The notes beneath the pieces are model-generated. The model was given only the letters and a program-made list of their open reading frames with translations, was not told the DNA's origin and did no database searches. DNA of 21,888 nt from positions 1 to 21,888 of IMG/VR virus record IMGVR_UViG_3300045135_001219. One strand, written 5' to 3'. This document shows positions 6,243-18,572 of the stretch, one piece after another; positions within the stretch are counted from its first letter, which is position 1, and every line of letters starts with the position of its first letter. The translations under genes were made by a program, and so were the position numbers. The DNA comes from a virus.

Positions 6243-6272
6243 AGAGGGGCGAATGCGAGCGCCCCTCTTTTT
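6243..6272 (+). terminator. Rho-independent terminator
   Basis: AGAGGGGCG (6243-6251) and CGCCCCTCT (6260-6268) make a 9-bp GC-rich stem with an 8-base loop, followed by a T tract (6268-6272). It ends the 5760-6117 operon on the plus strand. The HNH gene begins 22 bases later, so only read-through or a cryptic promoter would express that gene. Confidence 0.88.
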
Positions 6273-6294
6273 ACCAACGCAACGGGAGGACGAC

Positions 6295-6966
6295 ATGACC
6301 AGTAGAAGACGATTAACGCATGTAGAAAAGCAGGCAATCAAAAAGGCTTGGAATTTTAAGTGCGCATATTGCAGAGACACAGTTGTCGGCGACGCGTGCC
6401 ACATAGACCACATTGTGCCAGTAAAGCATGGCGGGAAGTGCGAAATAGAAAACCTAGCGCTATCGTGCATCAAGTGCAATCACCAAAAAGCAGACGCGCG
6501 ATTACCTCGGATGCATGAAGGCTTATTACTCGCGACCGCCGCCAGAAAAGCCCCTAAAGTACGTCAAGGCATGAAACGCACGCGCGTGGCAAAGAACAAA
6601 ATGCTAAATGCGTTCTTAACTAGCCTTGCGGACACGATTGACGGATACGGCAAAGAGATCGATCAGGTTGACATACCTGTGCGGCTTTACAGCAACCAAG
6701 AAGAAATTAAGGCAACTATAAGCATACCTTTAAAAGACGTCGTATACGAAGAGTTTATCGCAGAAGCATCTGAAGACATAACTAATACAAAAGCTATCGT
6801 GTTAGATAGATTGTCAGAAGTCAGAGAGCGTACAAAGCGGTCTAGGCTTGTAAAAGCCATTTCCGAGGAGGCTAACGTCAGCACAAGGTCAATATCGCGA
6901 TACGTCAAAGAGCTTGGCGAAGAGGGGCAGGCCAACGTTAAAGGCGGTTGGGTATACCCACTCTAA
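6295..6966 (+). CDS. HNH endonuclease with C-terminal winged-helix domain
   Basis: Start ATG 6295 has GGGAGG 6 bases upstream. An earlier in-frame ATG at 6253 lies inside the terminator loop and is unlikely. The product is 223 residues. An HNH module occupies residues 20-65: CAYC (Cys23, Cys26), HIDHIVPVKHGG (His36, Asp38, His39), Asn53, and CIKCNHQKA (Cys58, Cys61, Asn62, His63). These are the zinc and metal-binding catalytic residues of the family. Residues ~180-222 look like a helix-turn-helix (SEEANVSTRSISRYVKELGE). It is convergent with the large terminase, overlapping it by 4 bases. HNH proteins next to terminases can assist packaging cleavage; a homing or mobile endonuclease is the alternative. 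Confidence 0.9.
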   Translation: MTSRRRLTHVEKQAIKKAWNFKCAYCRDTVVGDACHIDHIVPVKHGGKCEIENLALSCIKCNHQKADARLPRMHEGLLLATAARKAPKVRQGMKRTRVAKNKMLNAFLTSLADTIDGYGKEIDQVDIPVRLYSNQEEIKATISIPLKDVVYEEFIAEASEDITNTKAIVLDRLSEVRERTKRSRLVKAISEEANVSTRSISRYVKELGEEGQANVKGGWVYPL

Positions 6967-8710: not shown

Positions 8711-9154
8711 TCACACGTCGTCATCGTCCACCTCTACCGCTTCACCCTCAATCACGTCACCAAGTAACGCCGCAGCTTGCGCGTGCAAGTCGTTCACGCT
8801 GATGTTGATGGCGACGTCACGCTGTCTCGTGTCGTACTGCGCGTTCAACTTCGACGCCATCCACTTATCCGTATCCACTTGCAAGCGAGCTACGTTGACC
8901 ATCGACGGATCAGTGTTCTGCGCTGTATCGACTGCACGCTCAGCGTAATAGTGTCCAGCCTCTAGCTGCGCAGTCGCGTAACGATCACGTCGGCCAGCCC
9001 TAGCGTCTAACCACTTCGCCCACAGCTTGTACCCGATGTTCTGCTCCTTCATGATGTTACGCACGCTCTTGCCCTGCGCTATCTGCTCGAACAGCTCATC
9101 CTCTCCAACCGCTTCCAGCGCTGCAATCTTTGCCTTGCCTACTTCACCGCCCAT
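8711..9154 (-). CDS. terS: Terminase small subunit
   Basis: The 147-residue protein has an N-terminal helix-turn-helix (IAQGKSVRNIMKEQNIGYKL, then WAKWLDA). A helical middle follows (YYAERAVDTAQ, then KWMASKLNAQYDTRQRDVA), and the tail is acidic (EVDDDDV). This is the usual plan of small terminases, which bind the packaging site as a ring and hand DNA to the large subunit. It lies upstream of the large subunit on the same strand, and its start overlaps the preceding gene by 11 bases. The family assignment is by recognition; no catalytic residue is expected. Confidence 0.88.
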   Translation of the reverse strand: MGGEVGKAKIAALEAVGEDELFEQIAQGKSVRNIMKEQNIGYKLWAKWLDARAGRRDRYATAQLEAGHYYAERAVDTAQNTDPSMVNVARLQVDTDKWMASKLNAQYDTRQRDVAINISVNDLHAQAAALLGDVIEGEAVEVDDDDV

Positions 9155-9416
9155 CGCTCACGATCTCTCCTGTTAACGCCGCATAGCCGCAGATGTCGAC
9201 CCAGTGATCCTGTTTCCTTGGTGACGTCTTACTACGCGCTATCTTCATCAGTATCATCATGTTGGCCACGTCCACTACTGTGAAGTCGTGATCCAGATAA
9301 GACGACCACAACGCTGCGATCGTCTCAAAGTTATCCTTTGCATCGCCGTAATCCTTGTTGCGCTCTCCGCTAATTACGCCTTCTGCTATTGCCAGTATCT
9401 CGTCTCTCGTTACCAT
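9144..9416 (-). CDS. Conserved phage protein, DUF6378-like, 90 aa
   Basis: The protein has the pattern I associate with the DUF6378 phage family: RNKDYGDAKDNFETIAALWS (residues ~19-38), then VDVANMMILMKIARSK, and a C-terminal QDHWVDICGYAALTGE. The conserved Tyr-Gly, Asn-Phe, Leu-Trp and Asp-x-x-Gly-Tyr positions are all visible. Function is not known to me. The start at 9416 overlaps the preceding stop by 7 bases and the end overlaps the small terminase, so it is part of one transcript. Confidence 0.85.
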   Translation of the reverse strand: MVTRDEILAIAEGVISGERNKDYGDAKDNFETIAALWSSYLDHDFTVVDVANMMILMKIARSKTSPRKQDHWVDICGYAALTGEIVSDGR

Positions 9417-9994
9417 GGTATTTCATCTCCACCTAAATCCCAGTTGATGCGATCATCACCATCACGCACCATCCGCGTTACCTTTGCATTCGGAAACGCA
9501 TTGAACGCATTGTTCAGGAAAGTCTCCGTCCAGTCAAACCTGATCACGCGTGCGGCATCCTCGAAGCTGTACACGATCCAGCTTGGATGCTTCTTCCGCA
9601 GCTCCGCCCACCCGTGCAACGCAAAGCATACGATCTTGTCATCGATCTCCACGCAATACGCGTGCGGCGGTAGCGGCTTGTGCCCTGCATCCTCCGCAGC
9701 CTTCTCAAGCACGTCCCACGCTCTCATGAGCTGCGTTGCGATCTGATTGACGCCAACAACATCCTCCGCATCCACACGCTCTCTCAGCGCCTCGTATGCA
9801 GCTTCAAACCGTCCTGCCAGATCAGGCGATACTAAGTCGGGCAACGTATCGCCCCACTTCGCTATCTTCTCCTTTGCCTTTTCATCGAGCGGACGTAACT
9901 GCCCCCATACGCCAGCACTGATCTTCGTCCCTTCGTCAGTAAGCGTACCTCTGACTTTCACGTCCTTGTACTTCACACGCCCCTTCTTTGCCAT
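9410..9994 (-). CDS. Hypothetical 194-aa protein
   Basis: The soluble protein has a basic N-terminus (MAKKGRVKYKDVKVRGTLTD), a helical middle (DLAGRFEAAYEALRERVDA) and a C-terminal part with paired aromatics. Start ATG 9994 has GGAGGAG 9 bases upstream, the strongest site in this stretch. It is the first gene downstream of the CCTCAGTT repeat cluster, so it may be what those repeats control, or it may bind them. I recognise no family. It lies in the replication module. Confidence 0.85.
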   Translation of the reverse strand: MAKKGRVKYKDVKVRGTLTDEGTKISAGVWGQLRPLDEKAKEKIAKWGDTLPDLVSPDLAGRFEAAYEALRERVDAEDVVGVNQIATQLMRAWDVLEKAAEDAGHKPLPPHAYCVEIDDKIVCFALHGWAELRKKHPSWIVYSFEDAARVIRFDWTETFLNNAFNAFPNAKVTRMVRDGDDRINWDLGGDEIPW

Positions 9995-10013
9995 GCTACA
10001 ACTCCTCCACTTT

Positions 10014-10148
10014 CCTCAGTTACTTTCACCTCAGTCCGAAGTTACCTCCTCAGTTACGTATATATACGTAATAACTGAGGAGGAACTAAAATCGGCCTCT
10101 TTTACCTCACTTCCTCACTCTACCTCAGTTCAACTGAGGAAACTGAGG
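10014..10148. repeat. CCTCAGTT repeat cluster with two hairpins
   Basis: This intergenic stretch holds the octamer CCTCAGTT or its complement at 10014 (+), 10048 (+), 10073 (-), 10123 (+), 10132 (-) and 10141 (-). Near-copies lie at 10029 (CCTCAGTC), 10105 (CCTCACTT) and 10113 (CCTCACTC). Copies at 10014 and 10048 extend identically to CCTCAGTTAC. Two inverted pairs form strong hairpins. 10123-10139 is perfect with a one-base centre. 10045-10083 has 11-bp outer arms around the perfect palindrome ACGTATATATACGT (10056-10069). It could be a replication origin with iterons or a multi-site operator. It is not a terminator, since no T tract follows. Confidence 0.85.
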
Positions 10149-10150
10149 AA

Positions 10151-10399
10151 CTAATGCAAAGTGCCATTCGACCCCTCTCTTAGCAGCGCCATATTCAGCG
10201 CCTTGGCCATCGTCACGTCGGTATCGATGCCTTGCAGCACCTCCATCACGAATGCCACGTCGATCGCCGCTGATGACATCATTGGCATTTCGTCTGCGCA
10301 CCACTCGATCACGGCGCCTCCGATTTCCTCGTCCCACACGATGCGTCCAAGCTCCAGCTTATTTTCGTCTTCTTCTATCTCACGTACTGGCAGTGTCAT
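10151..10399 (-). CDS. Hypothetical acidic 82-aa protein
   Basis: ATG 10399 is preferred because AGGAG lies 8 bases upstream. A GTG two codons earlier is too close to that site. The product begins MTLPVREIEEDENKLELGRI and is acidic and rich in Met and Asp. The stop lies 3 bases from the repeat cluster, and the start lies 2 bases after the upstream stop. Its role in the replication block is unknown. Confidence 0.8.
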   Translation of the reverse strand: MTLPVREIEEDENKLELGRIVWDEEIGGAVIEWCADEMPMMSSAAIDVAFVMEVLQGIDTDVTMAKALNMALLREGSNGTLH

Positions 10400-10401
10400 T
10401 G

Positions 10402-10824
10402 TCACAGCTCCTTAAAGTTAGCTATATCAAAGTGTACCATAGGCTCGATGTCTTGTGGATCGTCTCGTCGCGTTGTTCCGCCCATTTCGACGTGCATGTT
10501 CTCGTGCGCCGGCGGTAGCTTTGCGATGCCTGCCTTGTCCGTCCACTGCACTGCGAGAAAGCACGGTAAGCCTGTCGTCATTGTCAGCGAGCGCGCCTGC
10601 ATCGCCTTGTAGAGCGACAGCATGTACGTCGGGTACGTGTTCATCGCGATCTTGCGTTGTCTGGCTTCTATGAATGCTACGGCTTTCCCTTCGCGGATCG
10701 CCATGAAGTCTAGACTTAGCTTCATTGGCATCTTTGACAGGATGCACCCGTAATGCTTTTCGATCTTTGCTGCGAGGCGGCGCTCGTTGTTGCGATCTGT
10801 CTGCGTTTCGTATGTTGGCCTCAT
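10402..10824 (-). CDS. Putative small PD-(D/E)XK-like nuclease, 140 aa
   Basis: The core resembles a small restriction-fold nuclease: an N-terminal helix with ERRLAAKIEKHYGC, then LSLDFMAI (Asp39), a short turn, and AFIEARQRK (Glu53, Arg55). In classical members the last position is Lys, so Arg55 would be a variant or a sign of lost activity. Overlap with the upstream gene is ATGA. The gene lies beside helicase, exonuclease and resolvase genes, so a DNA-processing role is reasonable. The fold assignment is by motif only. Confidence 0.7.
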   Translation of the reverse strand: MRPTYETQTDRNNERRLAAKIEKHYGCILSKMPMKLSLDFMAIREGKAVAFIEARQRKIAMNTYPTYMLSLYKAMQARSLTMTTGLPCFLAVQWTDKAGIAKLPPAHENMHVEMGGTTRRDDPQDIEPMVHFDIANFKEL

Positions 10825-11060
10825 AGTTCCTCCTCCAGTTGCCTTAGCCTGAACGCCAGCTCACGTAGCTGCTCGCTCATGCCCTTCTCTATGTGCGCGC
10901 TAAACAGCGGCCGGCGATCCTTTGCGCTGTACGCCTGCCCCGCTATGAGCGCGAACGTCTTCGCGTCCGGCGCAATCTCAAATGTTATGTGCGCCACTTC
11001 GTAATGTTCCCGCGGTGCATCAGGATGACGCTGCTTCGATTTCTGGCTGTGACGGCTCAT
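10821..11060 (-). CDS. Hypothetical 79-aa protein
   Basis: Start ATG 11060 overlaps the helicase stop as TAATG and has GGAGG 8 bases upstream. An in-frame ATG at 11105 would lie inside the helicase gene. The product begins MSRHSQKSKQRHPDAPREHY, contains VAHITFEIAPDAKTFALIAG, and ends in a Leu/Glu/Arg helix (LRELAFRLRQLEEEL). The basic start and amphipathic end suggest an adaptor or nucleic-acid-binding partner. No family recognised. Confidence 0.8.
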   Translation of the reverse strand: MSRHSQKSKQRHPDAPREHYEVAHITFEIAPDAKTFALIAGQAYSAKDRRPLFSAHIEKGMSEQLRELAFRLRQLEEEL

Positions 11061-13252
11061 TAGCTTACCTCCGACGCGTTGATCCATTCCCCGACGACGA
11101 CGCACTGCACGTCACGCCCCTGCCGTTTATCTGGCCACTCCTCGACCTTCAGCACGTTTGTCTCGATCCACTTCTTCAGGATCGCCTTTGCCCGCGCCTT
11201 CTCGTGCTGCTTGTCCAAGTCGAGATCGAGCTGCACGGCCACCGCATTGCCCGCCCACGACTTTGCGCGTGCATCTGCGCGCATTGGCTCGCCACGCTCC
11301 GCGGCTGCCCCGATTAGACGTTGCACGGCCTGCGCGTCCTTTGCGCTGACCCCGTCGAACAAGTCTGGCATTTTGAACGGCACGCAGACGCCCACATATT
11401 CACCGTTTGGCAGCTCCACCCCGTGCATACGTCTGTACAGCGCCTTTGCGGCCGGCGGTGCGAGGTTTGCCTTGCCATCGTCAACACGGAATATGCCGAG
11501 CGCCTCCTGCTCCGACACGCCCAGCTTCATCGCGTCTTCTTGGCTCACGCGATTGATGACGCGGGCTGCGCGCGCTGCACCGATCAGCGATCCGGCGCCG
11601 CGGACGCTGTCAACCGTCGCGTCTTCGCCGTTTGTCTTACGAATGTGGTGCGTCAGCACGATCGCGGCGTCGGTCTTGTCTGCGACGTAGCGCGCGGCTG
11701 CGACCGCCGCGTTCATCGCGACGTTGTCGTTTTCGTTGATGTCGTTGAAGCCGACCCACGGGTCAATGATGACCAGCCCGATGTTGTGACGCTTAATCTT
11801 TTCGATCATGTATTCGAGCATGTCTTCGTCCGTTACGATGCCGTCACGCGTTTGCTTTGCGAACTGGATCATGAGGTCACGGCCAGCGTCGAGGAATAGC
11901 TTGCCGCGTATGTCCTCCGGCTTGATGCCATAGTGGATGAAGATGGCCGCGAAGCGTCGCTGCATTTCCTCGTATGGGTCTTCGCCGTTGATCACCCAGA
12001 CGTTGCACTGCTCGCGCACCTCCTCTTCTAGAAGCGGCTTGCCCAGCGCAATGGCGCAGGCTTCCACGCCCTGCATGGATGTCTTACCAACGCCGCCCAT
12101 CGACGCCAGCACGCTGACATATCCGCGGATGTAATGCGTGCCATATATCCAGCGCCGCTTTGGTATCAGCGACGGGTCGATGACCTCAAATTCAGTTGGC
12201 CACTGGCGCTCGCTTTCGATCTGTATCTGCTTAGCCTCTTCATAAAGTTGCGCAGTTGCCAGCGCCTCACGCAATTTTGTTTCGCCGGACTCACGTAGGT
12301 AGTCGTTTGCGTCCTTGACGTTTTCGGCGTCTAGCCGGTCGAAACGTATGACGTGCACTTGCGTGCTGCCGTCGCCCTTTAGGACGTCGACGCACTTTTC
12401 GATATCGAGGTCAGGGTCTGCGCATATTGTTACGTCTGAGGCGCGCGGAGGCGTGTACGTCGCCATGCCGGCCTTACCGAACGTGCAGATCACCGCCGCA
12501 TCGTCTTTGGCTGCCTGACGTATGCTGAGCGCATCCTCTGGGCCTTCGACAATGACGATTGGCTTTTCACCTTGCGTCTCGCCGATCTGCATTACGTTGC
12601 CAGCGATAACGCCGCGCGAGTATTTCGTAATGCCGTTTACCTCGCGCTTTTTGCCCTCTGGCGTAAGTAGCACGCTCTGGATGCCCTCGATCTCGCCCTC
12701 CGGCGTTGTCGCTGCGAAGATAATCGCGGGCCCGTCGTAAACGTTGGGGCTAAACTTTGCCACGTTGACCGCTGCGCTCGCTCTGAGGCCGCGTGAGTTA
12801 AGGTAAAGCAACGCAGGCTTTACCGCGTCTAGGTTTTCTCTTGTGATCGGCACGGCGCGCTCCCACGCCTCCTGCGCCTTCTTGATTTTGTCTCTGCGGC
12901 TTTCCTCGTCGCGTATGATTAAGTCTTTACTGGCCAGACGTGTAACCAGACGCTCCAGTTCACTTGGTATATACGGTTGTATATCCGAGTTTTCGAGCTG
13001 CTTTGGGTTTTCGCCGCCGCGTTTAAATCCGCTGCCAATGGTGGACTTGATCTCGAAATCCTTGAGCCCGACCTGACGCGCTGCCGCGTGTAGCTGTAGA
13101 ATGGCACCGTCAATGTTGGCCGGCGACATGTGCGCGTGCCTGCCAATTGAGAATGCTGCCTTGTTTAAGTTTTCGTTTCTGCCGCCCTTCATGGACGCAA
13201 TGACGTCGCCTACCGCTCCATCTACGACCTTATTAAAATATGCTTCTGACAT
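11060..13252 (-). CDS. Toprim/RecA-type replicative helicase-primase protein
   Basis: ATG 13252 (AGGGA upstream) gives 730 residues and is preferred to an in-frame ATG at 13306. The N-terminal ~80 residues resemble the helical region that follows the catalytic part of prim-pol type primases (NLNKAAFSIGRHAHM, then STIGSGFKRG). A Toprim domain follows at about 230-310, with IVIVEGPEDAL (Glu236) and CADPDLD (Asp279, Asp281). The C-terminal RecA-like ATPase has SMGGVGKTS (Walker A, ~384-392), LVIIDPWVGF (Asp497) and LTHH. No zinc finger or polymerase domain is visible at the N-terminus. It probably unwinds DNA at forks and may prime. Neighbours are the ssDNA-binding and nuclease genes. Confidence 0.88.
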   Translation of the reverse strand: MSEAYFNKVVDGAVGDVIASMKGGRNENLNKAAFSIGRHAHMSPANIDGAILQLHAAARQVGLKDFEIKSTIGSGFKRGGENPKQLENSDIQPYIPSELERLVTRLASKDLIIRDEESRRDKIKKAQEAWERAVPITRENLDAVKPALLYLNSRGLRASAAVNVAKFSPNVYDGPAIIFAATTPEGEIEGIQSVLLTPEGKKREVNGITKYSRGVIAGNVMQIGETQGEKPIVIVEGPEDALSIRQAAKDDAAVICTFGKAGMATYTPPRASDVTICADPDLDIEKCVDVLKGDGSTQVHVIRFDRLDAENVKDANDYLRESGETKLREALATAQLYEEAKQIQIESERQWPTEFEVIDPSLIPKRRWIYGTHYIRGYVSVLASMGGVGKTSMQGVEACAIALGKPLLEEEVREQCNVWVINGEDPYEEMQRRFAAIFIHYGIKPEDIRGKLFLDAGRDLMIQFAKQTRDGIVTDEDMLEYMIEKIKRHNIGLVIIDPWVGFNDINENDNVAMNAAVAAARYVADKTDAAIVLTHHIRKTNGEDATVDSVRGAGSLIGAARAARVINRVSQEDAMKLGVSEQEALGIFRVDDGKANLAPPAAKALYRRMHGVELPNGEYVGVCVPFKMPDLFDGVSAKDAQAVQRLIGAAAERGEPMRADARAKSWAGNAVAVQLDLDLDKQHEKARAKAILKKWIETNVLKVEEWPDKRQGRDVQCVVVGEWINASEVS

Positions 13253-13321
13253 TGTTTTCCCTGTACGCCGTTCTGCTGTGATGCGTGCGGCGCCGGAGCG
13301 CCACACACGTTATTACATTTG

Positions 13322-13897
13322 TTAGAACCCGAAGTTGTTTCCTTCCGCCGCTGGCGCTGGTTCTGGTGCTGGCGCTGGTGCCGCTGCCACAGGTGCTGCC
13401 GGTGCAGCGTCTGCCGCAGGCTTGTCGATCCATGTGCGGATGTTAAAGCCGACGTCATACGACGTGCCCTTACCAACAACGACAGGCGTCGTTGATGTCA
13501 CTTGTACGACCGGAACTTTGCCAGCAGTGAACTCTGGCATCGTTTCAGCTTGGTTGTACAGCTTCGCAATGAACTGGCCCAATCCGTATGAATTGCCAGA
13601 AAACTCCGCAGGGCGCCCATCACTGAGCCAGCAATTGACGCTGAAGCCTTGCTTATGGTTTTCGCTCGGGCGCTCAGTGCGCTGAGCTGGCGACGGCCAC
13701 GGCTGCCAGTCGCGGACGCCGATGTCAATGTGAAGCCACCCGAAAGTAACGTCTTTGATGTCGATCGCAAAGCCGCGATCCATGTCGATAGCTTCATCGC
13801 CTGCCTCCGTCTTAGCCCACCAGCGGTTTTGTGGTAGGTTACCGCGAATGTAAACGCCGGTGTTTTCGCTGTCAGTTGATCCGAATGAAATTGGCAT
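13322..13897 (-). CDS. Putative single-stranded DNA-binding protein
   Basis: The 191-residue protein has a beta-rich N-terminal domain of about 150 residues with many aromatics (FGWLHIDIGVRDWQPWPSP). A linker of repeated Ala/Pro/Glu follows, and the end is GNNFGF, laid out like the flexible tail and hydrophobic tip of SSB proteins. The tip lacks the usual acidic run, so this is a resemblance and not proof. It lies between the exonuclease and the helicase, the usual place for an SSB or annealing partner. ATG 13897 has AAGGAG 8 bases upstream. Confidence 0.7.
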   Translation of the reverse strand: MPISFGSTDSENTGVYIRGNLPQNRWWAKTEAGDEAIDMDRGFAIDIKDVTFGWLHIDIGVRDWQPWPSPAQRTERPSENHKQGFSVNCWLSDGRPAEFSGNSYGLGQFIAKLYNQAETMPEFTAGKVPVVQVTSTTPVVVGKGTSYDVGFNIRTWIDKPAADAAPAAPVAAAPAPAPEPAPAAEGNNFGF

Positions 13898-14708: not shown

Positions 14709-15151
14709 TACTTTCCCTTTCCGTAAAGCGCGATTAGGAGCGCCTCCGCACGGTGTTCGTCTTTTTTGCGTTTGAGCTGGCCGGCTAAATCCGGAAACCA
14801 TTGCTGCGCCAGCCTACGCGCCGCGTCCTTGTCGCGCGGTAAGTTGAGCGAACGCTTCCAATTGTTAGGCGTGACCAGAGTATATGGCGAACGCGATAGC
14901 GCGCACGTTGTCACGATCTGCCCGAACCCGTATCCAAGTTTAAACGTGGATGACACGCCCTGCTTTGGCATCGCCTGCTGCTTCTCGATATATATGTGAT
15001 CCACCCGTTCAACCGACGTTAGGATGTCCATCAGCGCCACGACGTCGACCCCGCCTTCGTCGTATGTTGGTAAGTCGTGGACTTCTGCCCAGTCGTCGCC
15101 AACAAGCGCCACGCCGCCGGTGCGGTATCCGCAATCAACGCCGATTATCAT
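14708..15151 (-). CDS. RuvC-like Holliday-junction resolvase
   Basis: The 147-residue protein has the RNase H-fold order of RuvC: IIGVDCGYRTGG with Asp6, IYIEKQQAMP with Glu56, and DEHRAEALLIALYG with Asp131/Glu136. The middle NNWKRSLNLPRDKDAARRLA also fits phage members of this family. Such enzymes resolve branched DNA before packaging and during recombination. The start overlaps the upstream ribbon-helix-helix gene by 17 bases. Phage gene, so the host name ruvC is not applied. Confidence 0.9.
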   Translation of the reverse strand: MIIGVDCGYRTGGVALVGDDWAEVHDLPTYDEGGVDVVALMDILTSVERVDHIYIEKQQAMPKQGVSSTFKLGYGFGQIVTTCALSRSPYTLVTPNNWKRSLNLPRDKDAARRLAQQWFPDLAGQLKRKKDEHRAEALLIALYGKGK

Positions 15152-15302
15152 CAGACACCTCGAAGCCTTGTCTTTCCAAGTATTCTCTTACAGCGTCTTC
15201 GACTATCTTTGACATGGATAACCTTGTCATTGCGCTGTAACTGTGCAGCGCGTCGTATACTTGCTCACGAATGCGTGGGCCAATTTGTTTTAGTTGATAC
15301 AT
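15135..15302 (-). CDS. Ribbon-helix-helix DNA-binding protein, 55 aa
   Basis: The 55-codon frame starts at ATG 15302 with GGAGG 5 bases upstream and ends TGA at 15135. The product opens MYQLKQIGPRIREQVYDALH, giving a short beta strand and first helix. SMSKIVEDAVREYLERQ follows as the second helix, the hallmark of Arc/MetJ/CopG repressors, which dimerise and insert the strands in the DNA major groove. It is the first gene of the leftward replication operon, directly behind a promoter and opposite the lysis genes, so self-regulation or switching is likely. Target sites are not proven. Confidence 0.85.
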   Translation of the reverse strand: MYQLKQIGPRIREQVYDALHSYSAMTRLSMSKIVEDAVREYLERQGFEVSDDNRR

Positions 15303-18281: not shown

Positions 18282-18572
18282 TCATATTTTATGTTTAGAC
18301 CGAAACTCGTATAACCGCTGTCGCGTTATATCTAACCTCCGCGCAATTTGGTCGTTGCTGTAGCCTTGCGCGGCCATCTCCTTGACGATCTGGTAGTGGC
18401 GCTCGTTGCGCTTGCGTCCACCCTTTTGGCCGGCTGCGCGCTGCGCGTTTGTTAGGTTTACCTTTTTCTGTAAAATCTTGTTCTCGATAGAGCACGTAGC
18501 GTAAATGTGATGCAGGCATTTTAGCCAGCGTTCTTCCGTAGGCACCATTCCCTTTGGCCAAGTAAAACTCAT
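18282..18572 (-). CDS. Helix-turn-helix protein, 96 aa
   Basis: The C-terminal ~35 residues form a resolvase/Hin-like helix-turn-helix (EMAAQGYSNDQIARRLDITR, then QRLYEFRSKHKI). A basic linker (AAGQKGGRKRNERHYQIV) precedes it. The N-terminal ~40 residues have Trp, Cys and His but no clear domain. No catalytic serine-recombinase part is present, so it is probably a DNA-binding regulator. The ATG overlaps the stop of the 31-aa membrane peptide gene as TAATG. GGGGG upstream is a weak Shine-Dalgarno, so coupling probably matters. A terminator follows. Confidence 0.82.
   Translation of the reverse strand: MSFTWPKGMVPTEERWLKCLHHIYATCSIENKILQKKVNLTNAQRAAGQKGGRKRNERHYQIVKEMAAQGYSNDQIARRLDITRQRLYEFRSKHKI

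Follow-up and report, generated by a model that had tools for sequence, protein, structure and literature searches.

A conserved octamer array that covaries with the predicted C-terminal winged helix of a primase-helicase: a candidate replication origin for an uncultured aquatic phage group

The array of nine octamer sites at positions 10014–10148 of the window (the whole 21.9-kb stretch of DNA analysed) very probably constitutes the initiator-binding (iteron) part of the phage replication origin, at which the phage-encoded primase-helicase would bind through its predicted C-terminal winged helix. This assignment is based on the conservation of the array, on the concerted change of its octamers among relatives and on a covariation confined to two residues of the primase-helicase. 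It is also likely, albeit with a lesser degree of confidence, that there is a family-wide code in which a single wing residue determines a single octamer base and residue 662 the first dinucleotide, that co-circulating phages form orthogonal origin–initiator groups, and that these groups arise via single substitutions together with concerted rewriting of about nine iterons. There thus appears to be a natural protein–DNA recognition code, in which single substitutions in the tail of the protein go with the same base change in every repeat; physical binding, melting of the dyad, helicase loading and origin function itself are what we infer from these patterns. The initial annotation had left open an origin or an operator; the origin, in which repeated binding sites adjoin an AT-rich palindrome, is the better supported of the two, although the proteins then proposed as binders are not those to which the comparative data point.

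Six exact octamers (CCTCAGTT/AACTGAGG) start at 10014, 10048, 10073, 10123, 10132 and 10141, and three near copies start at 10029 (CCTCAGTC), 10105 (CCTCACTT) and 10113 (CCTCACTC); all nine, which fill 10014–10148 in both orientations, could be located as initially annotated. Read on the minus (transcribed) strand, the consensus is AACTGAGG, with the core A[C/G]TGAGG. Exact copies of AACTGAGG lie on the minus strand at 10014–10021, 10048–10055 and 10123–10130, and on the plus strand at 10073–10080, 10132–10139 and 10141–10148; the near copies, i.e. GACTGAGG (10029–10036), AAGTGAGG (10105–10112) and GAGTGAGG (10113–10120), are all on the minus strand. The copies at 10123 and 10132 are the two halves of a perfect 17-bp inverted pair (10123–10139), the smaller of two hairpins described previously, and those at 10048 and 10073 are the facing arms beside the AT-rich palindrome. 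No exact octamer occurs elsewhere in the window. Within 140 bp, six non-overlapping copies of one 8-mer occur, compared with a maximum of 2–3 when the window was simulated 200 times under a first-order Markov model; the clustering of the octamers is not due to chance. An Rfam search returned no match.

The larger of the two hairpins is likewise present, as an inverted repeat (CCTCCTCAGTTA...TAACTGAGGAGG, 10045–10083) with 12-bp outer arms (10045–10056/10072–10083) and an inner, perfect, AT-rich 18-bp palindrome (TTACGTATATATACGTAA, 10054–10071), which lies between the facing octamers and is a candidate unwinding element or extruded hairpin. Folding of the 143-nt array strand as DNA gave z = −8.4 relative to shuffles. 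The symmetry of the dyad is kept across lineages with compensatory sequence changes, as in the variants ACGTATATATACGT, TTGCATATATATATGCAA, ACGCTTATATTAAGCGT, ACGCCTATATAAGGCGT and GCACCCTTATAGGGGTGC; among 26 distinct elements, pairs form at 76% of the dyad positions, compared with 57% (maximum 60%) in shuffles, and most positions show several pair types. That symmetry is retained while the letters vary favours a structural role for the dyad, by melting or hairpin extrusion, over that of one fixed binding sequence.

Among the relatives, i.e. IMG/VR loci found via the gene for the 194-aa protein (p194), a set later extended via the primase, every one with sufficient flanking sequence has the array. 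Their octamers, which include AACTGAGG, AACTGTGG, AACTGCGG, AGGTGAGG, AGGTGGGG and others, conform to the pattern xx[AC|GG]TG-N-GG, where N is A, T, C or G depending on the lineage, and nearly all octamers of a single genome, near copies included, share one variant. The scaffold is nearly fixed and the site positions are near-constant, while the octamers change together; concerted change on a kept scaffold is the mark expected where a single trans-acting protein reads all the sites. Conservation of octamer number and spacing, on which the initial annotation had staked its interpretation, is thus borne out by the relatives. Each of ten 35–38-kb genomes has one octamer cluster, and six of the ten have overlapping ends, as expected for circular assemblies. 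The GC-skew analysis proposed earlier, when run, gave no sign change at the array and positive skew throughout; since nearly all coding in these genomes is on one strand, which the all-positive skew reflects, it is uninformative. One group of relatives (group M; L094, L019–L022) has a mixed array of GGTGAGG and TTAGG-type copies, and its dyad differs too, as if in transition from one octamer type to another.

To identify which protein tracks the octamers, labels were taken solely from the repeats, using a search word that allows ACTG/AGTG and GGTG, and every column of 11 proteins was scanned by leave-one-clade-out prediction; L068, L169 and L203, whose sequences stop short of the array, were omitted. 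Residue 711 of the primase-helicase predicts the variable base N with an accuracy of 0.96–0.985, compared with at most 0.79 for other columns anywhere and 0.79 for the best of 200 label shuffles. The best columns of the other proteins (TerS, p194, p84, TerL, p191, exonuclease, RuvC, RHH, DUF6378 and PDDEXK) reach 0.57–0.75, such that among the 11 proteins the primase-helicase alone tracks N. Residue 662 of the same protein predicts AC versus GG with an accuracy of 1.00, the next column reaching 0.82. On the basis of this column scan, p194, TerS, p84, RHH and the six others were rejected as specificity determinants.

The observed pairings are Q711 with TGAGG; A711, H711 and T711 with TGTGG; D711 with TGCGG; and A708 together with Q711 with TGGGG. 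At residue 662, R pairs with AC and Q with GG as the first dinucleotide. In the first set, all 69 distinct primase C-termini obey this rule, and L095–L101, L099/L100 and L131 fit it when GGTG is counted. The rule was fixed before a later scan led by distant primases, in which 25 of 25 testable new loci fit for residue 711 (D711 with C), D being the only known 711 state in that scan, so that the test spans one base and one new residue; that new residue, T711, occurs with TGTGG in all eight loci carrying it. For residue 662, the rule (R662 with AC, Q662 with GG) holds in each of the 33 new loci with an array. Glutamine prefers adenine, aspartate cytosine, and small or methyl-bearing side chains thymine; the observed residue–base pairs fit these preferences.

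The octamer base label changes at least nine times on a tree of the primase (residues 1–600, the C-terminal domain being excluded), and some of the changes separate close relatives. The primases of L105 and L107 are 97% identical, with five differences in the C-terminal 130 residues, including D708A in the wing, and the octamers change from A to G. Those of L112 and L113 are 98.7% identical over residues 1–600 and differ by H711D, with octamers changing from T to C. In the latter pair the C-terminal domain is only 84.6% identical, i.e. more divergent than residues 1–600, which makes block exchange likely; some switches may therefore represent exchange of the C-terminal domain and the array as a block, which would be evidence for their functional linkage, not for causation by a single residue.

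The candidate initiator is a 730-aa protein (11060–13252, minus strand), whose start, from alignment with relatives, is MSEAYF at 13252 and not the GTG at 13306. It comprises an N-terminal region, a DnaG/T7 gp4-like TOPRIM core, an RSF1010-RepA-like SF4 helicase (residues about 375–612) and a predicted C-terminal winged helix. Pfam matches are to Toprim_3 (1.3e-10), AAA_25 (1.1e-35) and DUF7146, the helicase part matches RSF1010 RepA (1g8y; E 4e-8), and Foldseek matches of an AlphaFold2 model are to T7 gp4, Twinkle, DnaG cores and RepA. The winged helix (residues 637–720; 11093–11344, minus strand) is predicted from the model, with pLDDT of about 80–90 in the domain, and from the covariation. 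In the model of the last 131 residues (mean pLDDT 79), the elements run helix-helix-helix-strand-wing-strand; residues 708–713 lie at the turn of the wing, and residue 662 precedes the second helix. On the minus strand, the wing tip DKRQGR (708–713) is encoded at 11114–11131, with the codon of Q711, which tracks octamer base 5, at 11120–11122; the codon of R662, where R/Q tracks AC/GG at octamer bases 2–3, is at 11267–11269. A search of the PDB with a sequence profile of the C-terminal domain found no relative, and its Foldseek matches are weak (E 0.02–0.5), the top ones being mostly winged helices; they include the BLM RQC domain, DnaD, MarR/PadR regulators and Orc1/Cdc6 bound to origin DNA.

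These observations suggest a mechanism in which the C-terminal winged helix would bind each octamer, the wing tip (708–711) reading octamer base 5, i.e. N of the [AC|GG]TGNGG core, and residue 662, which directly precedes the second helix, reading the AC/GG dinucleotide. Several protomers on the nine sites would flank the dyad (10054–10071) and then melt or extrude it, the RepA-type SF4 hexamer would load at the opened dyad, and the attached TOPRIM domain would prime synthesis.

The array lies between the genes for an 84-aa protein (given as 82 aa in the initial annotation; the ORF list has 84 aa, with a GTG start) and for p194 (9410–9994), both on the minus strand. It is downstream of a replication module encoding a RuvC-like resolvase, an exonuclease VIII-like protein, a 191-aa protein, the 730-aa TOPRIM primase/AAA_25 helicase and a PDDEXK nuclease, and upstream of genes for DUF6378, an Sf6-like small terminase and the large terminase. 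In relatives the distance from the array to the p194 start is 76–199 bp, the array always being upstream, whereas that to the primase varies from 6 to 1783 bp. The array could thus have a regulatory role towards the p194 operon, and intergenic palindromic sites are a common trait of operators; the winged helix of the primase-helicase or another factor might then mainly regulate the downstream operon (p194, DUF6378 and terminase), e.g. by coupling replication to late expression. We nevertheless consider it unlikely that the array is primarily an operator. A promoter scan of 9800–10450, limited to the sigma-70 type, found no sigma-70-like promoter, the covarying protein is a primase-helicase, whose natural role would be origin binding, and an origin better accounts for nine sites that face both ways about an AT-rich dyad whose changes are compensatory.

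The proximity of the terminase genes, which are just downstream, raises a packaging (pac/cosB) site bound by the Sf6-like TerS (8711–9154, assigned by its match to Pfam Sf6_terminase), and TerS proteins bind repeated sites. This is very improbable given that the best TerS column reaches 0.68, compared with the almost perfect tracking by the primase winged helix, and that between the TGTGG and TGAGG groups TerS consistently differs solely by the conservative I/M34L. It is equally improbable that the array serves p194, the 84-aa protein or the ribbon-helix-helix (RHH) protein (15135–15302), the binders initially proposed, as an operator or partner site: the first two adjoin the array, but none has a residue that tracks the octamer, as the primase winged helix does. 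The p194 of L001 is 93% identical to that of the window though all the octamers differ, and has no residue specific to the L001 group; more generally, in close groups with different octamers it is the C-terminal tail residues of the primase that switch alongside, p194 having no group-specific residue. Neither the 84-aa nor the RHH protein was detected in many relatives that retain the array.

With respect to the origin reading, p194 may instead be a partner. Encoded directly downstream of the array wherever seen, it has no protein family match, and its C terminus is D(D/E)IP(W/F) in 192 of 192 homologous hits examined (overlapping loci included). This tip resembles that of bacterial SSB and so may recruit host SSB-binding replication proteins beside the origin; p194 is thus a possible candidate for an SSB-tip mimic or replisome-recruiting partner.

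Comparison with characterized replication systems places the candidate initiator close to, but distinct from, several of them. The alpha protein of phage P4 combines a TOPRIM primase, a helicase and a C-terminal winged helix in one polypeptide, which binds origin repeats, unwinds and primes (PMC4234260). The 730-aa protein likewise has a TOPRIM primase (by Pfam Toprim_3 and the DnaG cores) and a helicase, together with a predicted C-terminal winged helix that covaries with the repeats and would bind them; short repeated sites with an AT-rich dyad are present and conserved, as candidate counterparts of the P4 origin repeats. By analogy it may work like P4 alpha at its origin. It lies outside the P4 alpha family because its helicase is SF4, RepA/T7 gp4-like (AAA_25, RSF1010 RepA and the T7 gp4 fold), whereas that of P4 alpha is SF3. 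Its octamers differ from the P4 repeats in sequence and size, and, unlike P4 alpha, it shows a two-residue specificity code with four-base switching. RSF1010 has a hexameric helicase, RepA, iterons recognized by an initiator and stem-loops near its origin (PMC4234260). The RepA-type hexameric SF4 helicase (1g8y match) and stem-loops near the candidate origin are common to both systems, but the three functions distributed over RepA, RepB' and RepC in RSF1010 are combined here, as primase, helicase and predicted DNA-binding domain, in one protein, and no separate RepC-like initiator was recognized among the genes neighbouring the array. The sites are 8 bp long and in both orientations, unlike those of RSF1010 oriV. 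By this second analogy, the protein could work like a fused version of RepA/RepB'/RepC. T7 gp4 and Twinkle share the overall TOPRIM primase and SF4 helicase fold, but not the additional C-terminal winged helix or an iteron array tracking it.

Covariation of an initiator domain with iterons has a precedent in RepA of the PLE satellite of Vibrio cholerae (PMC8263062). PLE RepA belongs to a different protein family, and there the whole RepA_N domain is exchanged between two types, whereas here residue matches base, across all four bases and with repeated switches. In the open-licence papers searched we found no residue-by-base code that switches across all four bases, and no direct work on the candidate primase family. 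A nucleotide search against named phages gave as its sole match the DUF6378 gene (9144–9416, minus strand) in mycobacteriophages; the label phosphofructokinase given to this protein in records of D29 and others is probably a propagated misannotation. A protein search with the primase found two weak relatives among named phages, and in neither region does an iteron array lie near the primase; the dense repeat of the Microcystis phage falls inside its CobT-annotated gene. In the nearest cultured relative, Rhizobium phage RHph_X2_26 (L212), the primase is of the TOPRIM/RepA type (38% over part of the protein) and its C-terminal tail is similar; no octamer array lies within some 5 kb of this primase.

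How an initiator and all of its origin repeats shift specificity together without loss of replication is a question that is hard to study. The relatives provide a natural graded series of about a hundred origin–initiator pairs, including nine or more switches as well as minimal pairs with few differing residues, which opens the question to direct test. Candidate origins are also provided for an uncultured aquatic phage group, the predicted orthogonal origin–initiator pairs would be usable as tools, and the wing offers a candidate code for how winged helices recognize DNA. The P4-type all-in-one initiator would also gain a version with an SF4 helicase.

Some other features of the region may be recorded. 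The 191-aa protein of the replication module (13322–13897, minus strand) is conserved; its tail is acidic or rich in proline/alanine and in most cases ends in (N/D)FGF, and it is a candidate phage SSB. A 96-aa protein (18282–18572, minus strand), encoded outside the module, has a resolvase/transposase-type HTH and a weak match to RepB_primase_C. An HNH endonuclease gene on the opposite (plus) strand (6253–6966) abuts the end of the large terminase gene, and its product is possibly a homing or packaging-associated nuclease. Finally, L131 (CAKZOI010000056.1), with a ten-copy GGTGCGG array, is from a MAG assigned to Opitutae (Verrucomicrobiota), a weak hint as to phage host range.
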